From: Acidobacteriota bacterium
GTDB taxonomy: Bacteria > Acidobacteriota > Terriglobia > Acidiferrales > UBA7541
Assembly: GCA_003224525.1 (NCBI GenBank)
Contig: QHZB01000187.1
Coordinates: forward strand, 1 to 43,067
DNA: 43,067 bases
Direction of reading: 5' to 3'
Below are positions 26,413 through 30,632 of this stretch, one piece after another. The translations under genes were made by a program, and so were the position numbers. Under the pieces are notes generated by a model that was given only the letters and a program-made list of their open reading frames with translations, was not told where the DNA came from and did no database searches. Position 1 is the stretch's first letter, and each line of letters begins with the position of its first letter.

Positions 26413-27425
26413 ATGTCCTACGGAATAGCTGGAACGGGAATCGATGTTCATAAAAGCGATGTATGTTTGGCAGCAACCCCGAACAACTACGATCGCTCGC
26501 GGCATGGTTGATCGGGCAAGAGGCCGAGGAAGTAGTCATGGAATCGACGGCACAATATTGGAAACCGGTGTGGGGAGTGCTGGGAAGGTATTGGAATCCG
26601 ATACGCGAGAAGCGAGAAGGCGCAAGACAGAGGTCCGGAACGTTGCATCTGGCGCAGGCGCAGTCCAATCGCGGACGACGGGGACGCAAGAGGGATTTCC
26701 CCGATGCCGAACGCCTGGTGAAGCGGCTGGTGGCCGGAACTTGACTCTGAGCTTTGTGCCCGATGCCGAGCAACGTCTGTGGCGTACGGTAACGCGCAAG
26801 AAGTACCAGTTGAGGTGCGATCGGGTGCGGCTCTGCAGAACCAATTGGAGTCTGTTCTGGAACAGGCCCATATCCAGTTGTCCAGCTTCGTCTCCGATCT
26901 GCTGGGCCTCAGTGCCCGGCGGATGCTGAAGGCGCTCGCCGGAGGTGAAACCAACCCAGCCGCTCTGGCCGCTTTGGCGGATGAGCGCTTGCGCGCCACT
27001 CCGGAACAGTTGTGCGACGCGCTCGGTGCCTGTACGGAGTTGAAGGCCTTCTACCGGCGGCTGCTGAAGATGGCGTTGGAGGAGTTGCGATTGATCGACG
27101 AGCAGATCGGCGAACTGGACAAGGAGATGGCCAATTTGCTCAGCCAGCACCAGGATGCAGTCGAGCGGCTGGCGGAGGTGCCCGGTCTGGGAGTGGACTC
27201 AGCGCAGCAGATCATTGCGTCGGCCCTACCGCAGCGACCTTTCCCTCCGAGAAATGTCTCTCCTCGTGGGTCGGTGCTTGCCCGGGCGACGACGAGAGCG
27301 CAGGTGTGAACTACAGCCACCGGTCTCCGAAGGGCAACCGCCACATGCGGCGATTACTCAATCAGGCGGCCAACGCCGCAGTTAGAACCGAAGGAAGCAT
27401 CTTCGAGATTGTCCACAGGAGTTAA
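26413..27425 (+). pseudogene. Degenerate IS110-family transposase
   Basis: Fragments in three frames together spell an IS110 DEDD transposase of about 335 residues. They are GTGIDVHKSDVCLA (first Asp), VVMESTAQYWKPVWGVL (Glu), KRDFPDAERLVKRLV (two Asp), LTLSFVPDAEQRLWRTVTRKK, a coiled helical middle region, VERLAEVPGLGVDSAQQII, and the C-terminal SWVGACPGDDESAG (catalytic Ser region) with SPKGNRHMRRLLNQAANAA. At least four frameshifts or stops separate these pieces, so the element cannot make its transposase. It lies about 130 bp from tRNA-Cys. Confidence 0.88.
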
Positions 27426-27555
27426 TGCAAAATCGGGCGTAGCTCGAATCACCAAACGAACTCGGGAACGTGCGGAGGACTCAGGACCAGGGGAACTACC
27501 CTGGTTTACCCGAATAAAACTGTATCACATAGCTATCGAAAGTCAAGAGGGATTT

Positions 27556-27629
27556 TGGAGGCGCGAGGCGGAATCGAACCGCCGATAATGGTTTTGCAGA
27601 CCATTGCCTTACCACTTGGCGACCGCGCC
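27556..27629 (-). tRNA. tRNA-Cys (GCA)
   Basis: The minus strand folds into a full cloverleaf: acceptor GGCGCGG paired with the 3' CGCGCC side (one G-U), D-arm, anticodon loop CTGCAAA (anticodon GCA), T-arm GGTTCGATTCC, discriminator U73 (the tRNA-Cys identity base) and an encoded CCA. It lies about 330 bp downstream of the sulfurtransferase on the same strand. Confidence 0.97.
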
Positions 27630-27639
27630 ACCGGACTGA

Positions 27640-27957
27640 AAAATTGTCAGTTCTCAGTAATCAGTTATCAGTCAGAAAAAGAATGCGCCGAAGCTTCCGT
27701 TCTGCGCTCGCAAACTCTTGGTTATGAACTCTCCTTTTTCATTCCGAATGGTTTTCGGTTGTCAGTTCTCTGTTGGCAGTCATAAAGAAGAATGCGTGAA
27801 TGCTTCTTTACTGCAACTGTCAACTCTGTCTTCCTTAGTGAAAAGTTCTCCTAATTAGATCTTTGAGCCGAGATGGGGCACAGCATGCTGCGCTCCGACA
27901 AATCTATGCCGCTCGCCTCGGTGGCGGGTCTAAAGACCCGCCACTACGAAGACAGGC
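27640..27957. repeat. Repeat-rich intergenic stretch between tRNA-Cys and the sulfurtransferase
   Basis: Two imperfect direct copies of a TTGTCAGTTCTC...CAGTCA...AAGAATGCG unit start near 27646 and 27757. A degenerate GGGGCACAGCATGCTGCGCTCC palindrome is at 27875-27896, and a 24-bp hairpin (GTGGCGGGTCT, AA, AGACCCGCCAC) is at 27921-27944. The last lies just after the sulfurtransferase stop and may help end transcription. No coding sequence is visible. Confidence 0.6.
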
Positions 27958-28842
27958 TTACTTGGCGGTGGCGGCTAGCTGAGGTTGGGCGGCACGGGCT
28001 TCGTTGACGATGGGGGCGCCGATCAGGTTGCCCCATTCGGTCCAGGAGCCGTCGTAGTTACGAACCTGGTTGAAGCCCAGCAGATACTTGAGGACGAACC
28101 AAGTGTGCGAGCTACGCTCGCCGATGCGGCAGTAGGCGATGACTTCATCTTTGCCGGTAATGCCCTTGGACTCGTAGAGTTTTTTCAAGTCGTCGAAGGA
28201 CTTGAAGGTGCCATCTTCGTTAGAGGCCTGAGCCCAAGGGATATTCGCGGCCTGGGGAATATGGCCGGCGCGCTGGGCGGTTTCGGTCATGCCCGGAGGG
28301 GCGATGATCTTGCCGGTGAATTCATCCACAGAGCGAACGTCAACGAGTTGACCGGGCTTGCGCCCATCGAGGATGGCGAAGACTTCTTCCTTGCGAGCGC
28401 GAAGGGAATCGTCGGTGCCGGAGACGTGATAGGACGCGGGCGTGACGTTTGCGGGATCCTTGGTGACCGGGCGCTTTTCTTCGAGCCATTTCTTGCGGCC
28501 GCCGTTGATGAGGCGGACGTCCCTGTGGCCGTTCAGCTTCAATTGCCAAAGGGCGTAGGCAGCAAACCAGTTGTTGTTGTCGCCATAGAGAAGAATCGTA
28601 ACGTTATTGGAAATGCCGGAGGCGCTGAGAAGTTTTTCGAGGGTGGACTTGTCGATCAGATCGCGGCGGATGTTGTCCTGGAGCTGAGTCTGCCAGTTCC
28701 AGCCGACGGCGCCGGGGATGTGTCCCTGGTCGTAGGCGGTGGTGTCCACGTCGACTTCAACGAAGCGGAGATTGGGGGAATTGAGATTTTGCGCGGCCCA
28801 ATCGGTTGAAACCAGAACTTCGGGATGTTTGTAGTCGGACAT
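27958..28842 (-). CDS. Sulfurtransferase (thiosulfate/3-mercaptopyruvate, rhodanese family)
   Basis: The 294-aa protein is a tandem-rhodanese sulfurtransferase that moves sulfane sulfur from thiosulfate or 3-mercaptopyruvate to an acceptor. The N-terminal inactive domain shows VEVDVDTTAYDQGHIPGAV. The C-terminal active domain has LVDVRSVDEFTG, AGHIPQAANIPW and the active-site cysteine C238 in AYCRIGERSSHTW (loop CRIGERS). AAAAGGAG lies 5 nt before the ATG. The 206-nt leader holds a Cys-rich small ORF, a terminator and an alternative pairing, so expression is probably set by cysteine supply through attenuation. Confidence 0.94.
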   Translation of the reverse strand: MSDYKHPEVLVSTDWAAQNLNSPNLRFVEVDVDTTAYDQGHIPGAVGWNWQTQLQDNIRRDLIDKSTLEKLLSASGISNNVTILLYGDNNNWFAAYALWQLKLNGHRDVRLINGGRKKWLEEKRPVTKDPANVTPASYHVSGTDDSLRARKEEVFAILDGRKPGQLVDVRSVDEFTGKIIAPPGMTETAQRAGHIPQAANIPWAQASNEDGTFKSFDDLKKLYESKGITGKDEVIAYCRIGERSSHTWFVLKYLLGFNQVRNYDGSWTEWGNLIGAPIVNEARAAQPQLAATAK

Positions 28843-28882
28843 TGCTTTCTCCTTTTGCGTTCAGCTTGGAAAATCGTTTGAT

Positions 28883-28928
28883 CCAAAAACAAAAAACCCA
28901 CCTGCCAGTTCGTTTCTGGCGGTGGGCT
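28883..28928 (-). terminator. Attenuator (intrinsic terminator) in the sulfurtransferase leader
   Basis: On the minus strand, CCCACCGCCAG (28926-28916), loop AAACGAA and CTGGCAGGTGGG (28908-28897) form an 11-bp GC-rich stem with one bulged A. A T6-G-T5 tract follows. It lies about 40 nt before the sulfurtransferase start. Its 5' arm, AGCCCACCGCCAGA (28928-28915), can pair instead with TCTGGCG-C-GGGGGGCT (28982-28967) at the end of the small ORF, giving an antiterminator. Confidence 0.85.
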
Positions 28929-28964
28929 GAAGAACTCTTGAGGCTAAATCAACTCTTTAGAAGC

Positions 28965-29048
28965 TTAGCCCCCCGCGCCAGAAGACACACGCATACAGCA
29001 CGTACAACAGATACAGAGCTGCGCGTTCTTCTGGGGGAAAAATGACAT
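28965..29048 (-). CDS. Cys-rich leader peptide (27 aa) of the sulfurtransferase attenuator
   Basis: The small ORF has 27 codons plus TAA. Its centre reads QLCICCTCCM: five cysteine codons within seven (TGT ATC TGT TGT ACG TGC TGT). A promoter places transcription start at or next to the A of ATG 29048, so the message is probably leaderless; an in-frame ATG at 29063 overlaps the promoter. The last codons form one arm of an antiterminator. In the inferred model, a ribosome stalled on Cys codons leaves that arm free and the gene is on; a ribosome that reaches the stop covers it and the terminator forms. Polycysteine leaderless attenuators are established in mycobacteria; this would be an independent or widespread example. 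Confidence 0.82.
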   Translation of the reverse strand: MSFFPQKNAQLCICCTCCMRVSSGAGG

Positions 29049-29054
29049 ACTTAA

Positions 29055-29083
29055 AGCATACATGAGAGTCGGAGAATTGGCAA
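29055..29083 (-). promoter_or_regulatory. Promoter of the sulfurtransferase leader
   Basis: On the minus strand, TTGCCA (29083-29078), a 17-nt spacer and TATGCT (29060-29055) match sigma70 boxes well. The predicted start site is at about 29048, the first base of the Cys-rich ORF. Confidence 0.65.
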
Positions 29084-29681
29084 TAGTACTTGGGTGAGAG
29101 GGTGAGAGGTGGCTGGCGGTGCTGCGGAGGGCTGCGGAGGGGGTTGGTCTTCTTCTATTTACCGTTGGACTGGCATTCGCGGTCCCCTTAGCGGTGGCGG
29201 AGGGACAGGATACTGAGTCAACAGTCTTATTACGACTCGCCGGCTCGGTGTGTGGGTGAATTGGGATCGGTCGCTAGGATTGCGCTCTCCGTGTTCGCTG
29301 AACTGTACTTCCTTGCACACGCGTGCATCAGCGAATTTCGTTCACCAGACTGAGGCAGGGCCGCAAACTGCTCGAGCTTTTCGGTTCGGTAGGGGGAATG
29401 AGATCCGCCATAGACTGCACAGAATTTTCCTTAGGGACAATCAGTTTTTGGTTTTACGATTTCGCCGCGACCGTCGGAAAGGCCCTGCACTCAAAACCCG
29501 ACTGGAGCATTGCATATTGGCGGGATTGCCTGTACGTTATCAGTCGACCGGGAAGTCAAAATGGAAATTCCGGTCAACCCAGCCTAGTGAGACGCCGTGG
29601 ATCCCCGGCAGGCTCGCAAGTTTAACAAAGACTGCGCCCTCGCCTACCTCTTTCTCACTCAAACAATCACAGGAGAATCGC
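29064..29681. other. Gene-poor stretch upstream of the DUF3011 gene
   Basis: It holds the minus-strand leader promoter at its left edge and a tandem GCTGCGGAGG duplication at 29121-29140. An open frame continuous with the DUF3011 gene runs through 29250-29681, but its composition is unlike protein and the true start has its own ribosome site. Confidence 0.45.
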
Positions 29682-30632
29682 ATGCGAATTTGCCGGATTA
29701 TTTTTGTTTTGGTGGCGGCCTTCTTCCCATTTGGCCGTGGGGCATTGGCTAGGCAGGCACCGCAGGAGCGCCAGGCCCAGATCATTCCGTGTTCTTCAAA
29801 TGACGGGGAGAAGCACTACTGCACGGCGGACACCAGGTACGGCGCGCGACTGGTGCGACAGCGCAGCCAAGCGCTGTGCAAAGAGGGCGAATCGTGGGGC
29901 TACGACGAAGAAGGAATCTGGGTGGACAAGGGATGCGGCGGTGAGTTTACTTTGGGGCGCGGCGACGACGGCGGCGATGCCCGCGGCGAGGGTGGTGGAG
30001 GGATGATAACGTGCGCGTCGGACAATGGCCGGCGAAGAGTTTGCCCGGCGGATACCAGCAACGGCGTGCAGCTCATGAGACAACGGAGCGACGCGAAGTG
30101 CAAGGAAGGCTCCTCTTGGGGACACGATACTCACGGAATTTGGGTGGATAAAGGATGCGAGGCGGATTTTGTGGTGGGCGTTCCGGGGCATCCGACCGGG
30201 TCCGGGAAAGCCGGGGGCAAGAGCCAGAGGATAAGCTGTGATTCGTTCGACGGGAGAAAGAATTATTGCGACGCGGATACGCAGGGGGCCAAGGTGCAGC
30301 TGACGAGACAGATAGGCACGGCGCAATGCATTGAAGGCGCGACCTGGGGATCCGATCGCAGGGGCGTTTGGGTGGATCGGGGTTGCAACGGGGAGTTCCT
30401 GGTTCAGCCGGGAAGCCAATTAGGCGCGGGGGATTCTTCGGGGAAGAGTTGCGCGAAGACGGTGGGCAAGCGGGTGGCGGATGAGTTGGAGAGGCAGTGC
30501 CTGCAAGTATCGCCGGCAACGCATTCACCGTGCAACACGCAAAACTCGTGTAAGCTGATGGAGGACGAAATTCAGCGAGGATGCGGATTGTTGGGCGCGA
30601 ATGCGCCGGCATTCTGTGGTGAGAAAAAATGA
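29682..30632 (+). CDS. Secreted protein with three DUF3011 repeats
   Basis: This 316-aa exported protein has a signal peptide (about 1-24) and three DUF3011 units of about 58 residues (34-92, 108-166 and 183-241). Each has four cysteines and the pattern CxSxDG...C.AD....QL.RQ....C.EG..WG.D..G.WVD.GC. Gly-rich linkers separate them. A C-terminal segment with several cysteines (about 262-316) follows. The even cysteines suggest disulfides in the periplasm or outside the cell. The function is unknown; such proteins may bind surface polymers. AGGAGA lies 6 nt before the ATG. Confidence 0.9.
   Translation: MRICRIIFVLVAAFFPFGRGALARQAPQERQAQIIPCSSNDGEKHYCTADTRYGARLVRQRSQALCKEGESWGYDEEGIWVDKGCGGEFTLGRGDDGGDARGEGGGGMITCASDNGRRRVCPADTSNGVQLMRQRSDAKCKEGSSWGHDTHGIWVDKGCEADFVVGVPGHPTGSGKAGGKSQRISCDSFDGRKNYCDADTQGAKVQLTRQIGTAQCIEGATWGSDRRGVWVDRGCNGEFLVQPGSQLGAGDSSGKSCAKTVGKRVADELERQCLQVSPATHSPCNTQNSCKLMEDEIQRGCGLLGANAPAFCGEKK

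Follow-up and report, generated by a model that had tools for sequence, protein, structure and literature searches.

The leader upstream of a sulfurtransferase gene in an Acidobacteriota bacterium is very probably a transcription attenuator in which the translating ribosome gauges how far tRNA-Cys is charged, as judged from the arrangement and conservation of its parts. It lies within a contiguous stretch of 43,067 nucleotides (contig QHZB01000187.1, hereafter the window). A preliminary description of this DNA had proposed a cysteine-responsive attenuator at this site, and the comparative data support that reading through conserved Cys codons, paired arms and promoter spacing. Beyond it, four Cys attenuators were found in the same genome, a further pairing strand (strand 1) was recognised, and tRNA-Cys emerged as a likely target. 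The parts of the leader are conserved, its strands pair in alternative ways, and leaders of this kind precede mostly sulfur-related genes across the class.

Leader, proposed switch and downstream genes in the window

The elements named in the preliminary description (promoter, ATG, 27 codons with five Cys, TAA, hairpin and T6-G-T5) are present base for base on the minus strand (Table 1). TATGCT is separated from the ATG by 6 nt, the Cys run of the leader peptide reads LCICCTCC, and the terminator hairpin consists of 11 bp with one bulged A. The Shine-Dalgarno (SD) sequence of the rhodanese gene stands outside the switch, 28 nt past the T-run. Compared with the 13 other genus leaders in alignment A2, the window ORF lacks one base and stops early; in relatives the ORF end reads, for example, GAGRLSS before the stop.

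Table 1. Features of the leader and of the genes downstream of it.
Feature	Position	Strand	Details
Promoter	29055..29083	(-)	TTGCCA 29083-29078, 17-nt spacer, TATGCT 29060-29055; from sequence and scan
Leader ORF, MSFFPQKNAQLCICCTCCMRVSSGAGG and stop	28965..29048	(-)	27 codons, TAA 28967-28965; ATG at the predicted +1
Strand 1, CCAGAAGA	29027..29034	(-)	near ORF start; partner of strand 2
Sensor run, TGT ATC TGT TGT ACG TGC TGT	28995..29015	(-)	five Cys in seven codons
Strand 2 core, TCTTCTGGCG	28976..28985	(-)	within the last ORF codons; pairs with strand 1 or strand 3
Strand 3, CCCACCGCCAGAA	28914..28926	(-)	terminator 5' arm; also pairs with strand 2
Strand 4, CTGGCAGGTGGG, with T-run	28885..28908	(-)	3' part of the terminator; strand 4 28908-28897, T-run TTTTTTGTTTTT 28896-28885 (T6GT5)
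Shine-Dalgarno of rhodanese, AAAAGGAG	28849..28856	(-)	from sequence
Two-domain rhodanese / thiosulfate sulfurtransferase (CysA2-like)	27958..28842	(-)	294 aa, ATG 28842; Pfam PF00581 in two stretches
tRNA-Cys (GCA)	27556..27629	(-)	ARAGORN and Rfam; 328 nt past the rhodanese stop

When the 301-nt upstream region was resampled 20000 times with an order-1 Markov model, five Cys in seven codons came up 10 times, and the fold of the leader was better than those of all 200 dinucleotide shuffles (z -2.9). The consensus promoter scan of the window was weak (2 found versus 1.0 expected), and the terminator part of the promoter/terminator scan missed the bulged hairpin. The weight of evidence therefore lies on conservation. 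When positions 27500-29700 were searched against Rfam, tRNA alone exceeded the gathering score and the leader had no match; a search of ten leader loci likewise gave no leader match (E up to 0.05).

As the preliminary description had stated, the last ORF codons are complementary to the 5' arm of the terminator, with strand 2 pairing through its core and the following Gs. Strand 2 also pairs with strand 1, a pairing absent from that description, which completes the 1:2, 2:3 and 3:4 set with computed energies of -16.2, -20.4 and -21.5 kcal/mol, respectively. The leader hence possesses an intrinsic terminator and a mutually exclusive antiterminator, the hallmark of trp/his-type attenuators. When the nascent transcript was folded up to strand 3 with the ribosomal A-site on Cys codon 1, 4 or 5, 2:3 formed with 11 pairs and 1:2 was missing. 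With the A-site on Cys codons 2 and 3, 1:2 stayed, together with six pairs scored as 2:3, and with the A-site on the stop codon neither 1:2 nor 2:3 was formed. In the equilibrium fold of the full leader, 3:4 was obtained at every ribosome position tried; switching would therefore have to be kinetic, as is accepted for the trp attenuator.

The best solved-structure matches of the rhodanese are the thiosulfate sulfurtransferases 3aax and 3hwi, which we take to belong to the mycobacterial CysA group. Between the rhodanese and tRNA-Cys genes, positions 27944-27921 form a perfect inverted repeat without a T-run, so the two genes are probably co-transcribed and tRNA-Cys would be a further target of the attenuator. 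According to ARAGORN, tRNA-Cys lies downstream of rhodanese at 14 of 16 genus loci including the window (absent at L036 and L042; at L046 the rhodanese is a fragment), and at 0 of 16 loci of other genera, where 318-590 nt past the stop were examined in 15 and L230 is cut. Two polyCys leaders stand directly before tRNA-Cys, one ending 35 nt before it at L071 (genome G004, in which no rhodanese was found) and one ending 54 nt before it at L248 (G080, another genus). The window's own genome carries a second tRNA-Cys elsewhere (L185).

The tRNA region shows several further peculiarities. In genus g26 the order is reversed at L197, L199 and L203, where tRNA-Cys comes shortly before the polyCys leader. 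Beside the tRNA-Cys gene of the window, positions 26444-27309 hold fragmented reading frames in which Pfam gives a helix-hairpin-helix match alone; these are presumably transposase remains. A 40-nt 5' part of tRNA-Cys precedes the tRNA-Cys gene downstream of rhodanese at L041, L044 and L053, and an odd, long tRNA-like stretch follows rhodanese at L036. The tRNA-Cys(GCA) genes of L040 and L044 match the tRNA-Sec model with 39.4 and 42.7 bits (gathering score 47) and may be compared with the tRNA-Sec-like tRNA-Cys covered in the accessible text of a review (PMC7609411).

Distribution, targets and sensor codons

When the genome that contains the window (6.47 Mb in 516 contigs) was searched at the DNA level, two further leaders were found, both upstream of cysD (L002 and L003), together with a terminator-side match before aspartokinase (L004). 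We then used a covariance model, R1, built from alignment A1 (ten rhodanese leaders and one cysD leader), which recovered the four places of the DNA search and added a leader before sulfite reductase (C10). In total, the genome has a Cys leader before rhodanese, another before sulfite reductase and two before cysD, making four, plus a single leader of the Thr/Ile type; in the C388 copy, the beginning of the leader is hidden by N.

Counting both the Cys and the Thr/Ile versions, R1 matched 36 of 36 genus genomes at E<=0.01, 71 of 95 order genomes at E<=1e-5 and 101 of 299 genomes sampled from the class at E<=1e-4. A phylum sample of 247 genomes, for which the share from other classes is not listed, gave six matches at E<=1e-7, namely the own genome and five of its class. 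The order, class and phylum searches were run with stricter filters, by which weak matches are lost. Within the order, no R1 match was seen in any of the six genomes that represent its two other families, nor in the 16 genomes of genera g16-g19, g21, g22 and g27. Single-contig genomes with matches in family f11 suggest that cultured members of the class exist.

We read 142 R1 or DNA matches from the own-genome, genus and order lists, in which 34 of the 36 genomes of the genus are represented. Of these matches, 107, from 60 genomes, contain an ORF with three or more Cys. Within the genus, such polyCys leaders were read in 27 of 36 genomes; nine had none by the ATG rule, among them G021, in whose leader a TGA takes the place of a Cys codon. 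A separate reading of 20 class-level matches, drawn from families f6, f8 and f11, gave 19 with at least three Cys and one that was Thr-rich.

By next gene, the 107 polyCys leaders are divided into rhodanese (31), cysD (21), sulfite/nitrite reductase (20), siroheme synthase (1) and other or unassigned (34); by clustering, some of the last group join the rhodanese, cysD, sulfite reductase or siroheme synthase leaders. Pfam identified PAPS_reduct (cysD-like), NIR_SIR, siroheme synthase, ATP-sulfurylase, TauE and DsrC among representative targets, as well as a solute-binding protein, an outer-membrane receptor, an NMT1-like binding protein and a Mur ligase. A short ORF with Cys codons thus stands upstream of genes of the pathway in question, as in trp/his-type attenuation. 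The Mur ligase domain gene, directly downstream of the polyCys leader L239 (G071), is an unexpected target. In f11, Cys leaders precede a small single-domain rhodanese (L261, L263, L265, L266, L271 and L280; Pfam for L261), and at L266, ordered like L261, the next gene encodes a SrpI-like type 2A encapsulin.

Other sensor codons were found as well. Fifteen matches have a similar stretch from strand 2 to the terminator; 13 precede aspartokinase by motif and L064 does so by cluster, with Pfam confirmation for L004, while L099 was assigned by cluster to aspartate-semialdehyde dehydrogenase. Fourteen of these 15 leaders contain 7-12 Thr, the own-genome example being MLSIATKRITAKSSMSTTSTTTKTTIFASGAWRNS; the ORF listed for L099 alongside the other 14 differs from its separate Thr-rich ORF. 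One match before hisI (PRA-CH), L101, reads MALQTQRQHHHHHGHNPRLLRCA and carries His codons. With the terminator excluded, the Thr and Cys stretches aligned with a mean Z of 3.7 (range 2.0-5.7) over 48 pairs, to which 8 of the 15 Thr sequences and 6 of the 10 Cys sequences contributed. This alignment is suggestive of homology, with convergence as a possible alternative. A class-wide leaderless chassis may have been copied many times with Cys, Thr/Ile or His sensors, one branch coming to control tRNA-Cys itself; on this proposal we are almost evenly divided, leaning slightly towards doubt.

Farther afield, the nearest named relatives with the leader are MAGs of Candidatus Acidiferrales (L106 and L108) and an Acidobacteria bacterium (L109). 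Among 80 rhodanese loci, named and for the most part distant, eight were flagged for at least three Cys in 7 codons of the upstream region; L106, L108 and L109 were of the same kind as the window leader, and L118, L129, L136 and L146 were weak. Upstream of rhodanese in the Chloroflexi bacterium CFX5 (L132), an ORF ending in MACMCCMCGYFCVDRRLGQ before its stop differs from the window type and is possibly another Cys leader in a different phylum. Other Cys-rich ORFs were noticed upstream of rhodanese at L022, L024 and L025 (family f3) and at L023 and L026, in families without R1 matches there. In f3 the last residues are CSGGR or CSGGPR and a GC hairpin extends over the stop codon; these ORFs are possibly an independent Cys device of another logic.

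Sequence constraint, strand pairing and the predicted start site

Conservation of the Cys codons upstream of related sulfurtransferase genes was a check proposed with the preliminary description, and the leader passed it. Among genus rhodanese loci with at least 80% protein identity and available upstream sequence, 10 of 11 have the leader, one of them (L015) with a TGA at a Cys position. The eleventh, L032 (G011:C635), has lost the leader interior. Conversely, 0 of 8 loci of genus rhodanese paralogs with 65-71% identity carry a leader. The hairpin and T-run stand between leader and gene in all 14 genus leaders of A2, and the median number of T in the first 8 positions after the hairpin is 6 for the 31 rhodanese-class leaders. 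A nine-base (three-codon) deletion in L049 keeps the ORF in frame.

Two of these loci deserve separate mention. At L032 the promoter and SD remain, and the Cys codons, strand 2 and the terminator 5' arm are missing; it might be a natural deletion, which might be constitutive, or an assembly variant. In L048/L015 (G021, a MAG of 73% completeness), TGA replaces the Cys codon of L047, which may reflect an error, decay or a recoded codon.

The third positions of codons 21-26 (VSSGAG), which overlie strand 2, are identical in the 14 genus leaders (1.00), as against a mean pairwise identity of 0.61 for third positions in the first 80 rhodanese codons of 13 of those 14 loci. This points to a constraint on the RNA beyond that on the peptide.

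In the same 14 leaders, 98.2% of the alignment cells were paired for 1:2, 99.1% for 2:3 and 92.9% for 3:4. Compensatory changes in the arms, the other comparative check proposed earlier, were borne out in part. L049 shows a double change, TCT to AGT (both Ser) in strand 2 with G to C in strand 1, and 2:3 pairing across leaders exceeded all shuffles as described below; formal covariation within target classes is thin, because pair cores and columns hardly vary. For the 14 genus leaders, shuffles gave modest support to 1:2 (33/500) and none to 2:3 or 3:4. For the 20 leaders of the sulfite reductase class, 2:3 was reached in 27 of 500 shuffles, and 1:2 gives no information.

A test across classes used the CTGGC strand core, recognisable in 87 of the 107 leaders (20 were dropped, the strand not being found). 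An earlier version on CTGG had picked wrong copies in some classes and was superseded. The mean 2:3 run of 6.02 bp was above 5000 of 5000 shuffles, a result inflated by kinship. It was reached in 0 of 5000 both with and without duplicates and is free of the selection bias that affects strand 1. The corresponding values for 1:2 (0/5000, and 1/5000 without duplicates) are biased, because the copy taken as strand 1 is the best-pairing candidate. At the second flanking position, 65 of 87 leaders were paired in 2:3 versus 53.4 expected from shuffles that ignore relatedness. A whole-strand swap test was weak: the share of foreign partners that paired as well as or better than the native one had a median of 0.29 for 1:2 and 0.33 for 2:3.

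The leader ORF appears to be translated from a leaderless or almost leaderless RNA, given the position of its promoter. In 97 of 107 polyCys leaders, the -10 box and the ATG are 6-9 nt apart (rhodanese 30/31, cysD 17/21, sulfite reductase 20/20, siroheme 1/1, others 29/34), a spacing that the same scorer gave for 1100 of 2176 other ATGs of these loci. A promoter score of at least 12 was obtained for 77 of 107 leaders versus 4 of 2176 other ATGs; the leader ATG was picked by promoter score and Cys count jointly, and the spacing and score counts are not fully independent. The -35 boxes vary by class (TTGCCA, TTGCAG and TTGACA are common), with narrow spacing within each class. For three Acidobacteria, leaderless genes were predicted at 13.3% on average, according to the consulted part of PMC3160421.

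Proposed mechanism, alternatives and known systems

In the proposed mechanism, transcription would start at or next to the ATG, and the leader ORF would be translated without, or almost without, a 5' leader. When Cys-tRNA is plentiful, the ribosome would reach the stop codon and cover strand 2, or 1:2 would re-form; 3:4 would then form and RNA polymerase would stop before the rhodanese gene. When Cys-tRNA is scarce, the ribosome would stall on the Cys run and leave strand 2 free to pair with strand 3. This pairing would block the terminator, and the sulfurtransferase and probably tRNA-Cys would be transcribed. On the latter branch, uncharged tRNA-Cys would drive the making of more tRNA-Cys as a feedback.

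The leader might instead act on translation as in mycobacteria, a stalled ribosome opening a structure that hides the ribosome-binding site, with the hairpin being no terminator. Mycobacterial Cys leaders do precede the same enzyme, cysA2 (PMC4633059), and those of M. smegmatis are described as translation attenuation (PMC13236596), as far as the available portions of both papers go. Yet the 14 A2 leaders are separated from their gene by a GC hairpin and its T-run, the SD sequence falls beyond the switch by the 28 nt noted above, and the leaders L071 and L248 precede a tRNA gene, whose product is untranslated, so that we consider translational control quite improbable. We give still less credence to a role of the peptide itself, either as a Cys-rich microprotein binding metal or sulfur or as an arrest peptide whose C-terminal SSGAGR responds to a small molecule. 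SSGAGR or close variants do recur at the C-terminus of many leaders; against this, the sulfite reductase class typically ends in ISGQRSFRT and nonetheless keeps the CTGGC core, the N-terminal codons drift among relatives, and the invariant third positions under VSSGAG point to RNA pairing.

That the arrangement is a coincidence, the terminator of another gene beside a chance Cys-rich frame, is extremely unlikely. The promoter scan, barely above shuffles, would fit such a coincidence, but the upstream neighbour (29250-30632) is oriented opposite to the leader, and the leader terminator is therefore not the end of that gene. Moreover, 107 leaders show the same arrangement, and in 73 of these the gene behind it is a rhodanese, cysD, sulfite reductase or siroheme synthase gene; the rarity of the Cys run among the resamplings also speaks against chance, which conservation already contradicts.

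If the attenuator reading is true, a class of soil bacteria steers sulfur uptake, reduction and transfer by one signal, the charging of tRNA-Cys, and leaderless translation can be coupled to transcription termination. Cys attenuation would then reach beyond the translation-level control of mycobacteria and the one gene cysS, taking in a set of several genes in a different phylum. A tRNA gene would join the targets of attenuation, with a leader-peptide feedback loop on tRNA-Cys.

Like the enteric trp, his and thr attenuators, the present leader combines sensor codons, 1:2/2:3/3:4 pairing and an intrinsic terminator. The enteric leaders have a Shine-Dalgarno site and a 5' UTR, whereas here the -10 box is mostly 6-9 nt from the ATG and the sensor codons are located in the loop between strands 1 and 2. 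The preliminary description had also compared the device with the leaderless polycysteine attenuators of mycobacteria. The polycysteine sORFs before cysA2 and cys operons are reportedly leaderless, as stated in the title of a 2020 study by Canestrari. The likeness holds for the Cys-rich leader ORF, the enzyme family and the presence at more than one sulfur locus, and would include the leaderless start predicted here. It does not extend to the mechanism: no terminator was found in mycobacteria, while the leaders described here have a terminator conserved within the genus, a four-strand switch and tRNA-Cys among the likely targets. Cys leaders before Mycobacterium cys operons were proposed in 2005 with no conserved terminator hairpin in the accessible text (Seliverstov; PMC1262725), a 2015 paper reported ribosomes occupying the cysA2 leader (Shell; PMC4633059, in part), and the excerpt of PMC13236596 cites Canestrari 2020 for translation attenuation.

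For phyla such as Acidobacteria, a 2010 screen could link hardly any of its predicted attenuators to a function, by the consulted text of PMC2965389. Among the papers listed by searches of an open-licence library, we saw neither a report of this leader in Acidobacteria nor a tRNA gene controlled by a leader peptide for its cognate amino acid. A further related design is uORFC-8-2, predicted in 2021 upstream of cysS in Rhodobacterales, which has Cys codons in a leader ORF, an intrinsic terminator and proposed read-through when charged tRNA-Cys is low (PMC8632094). In the available part of that paper, it carries two tandem Cys codons, is exclusively upstream of cysS, belongs to another bacterial class and is not described as leaderless; the window leader differs in its five Cys codons, its rhodanese as the next gene and the many targets of its kind. 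Cys attenuation as such is known, and it is the combination of an apparently leaderless start, a terminator, many sulfur targets and tRNA-Cys that looks new.
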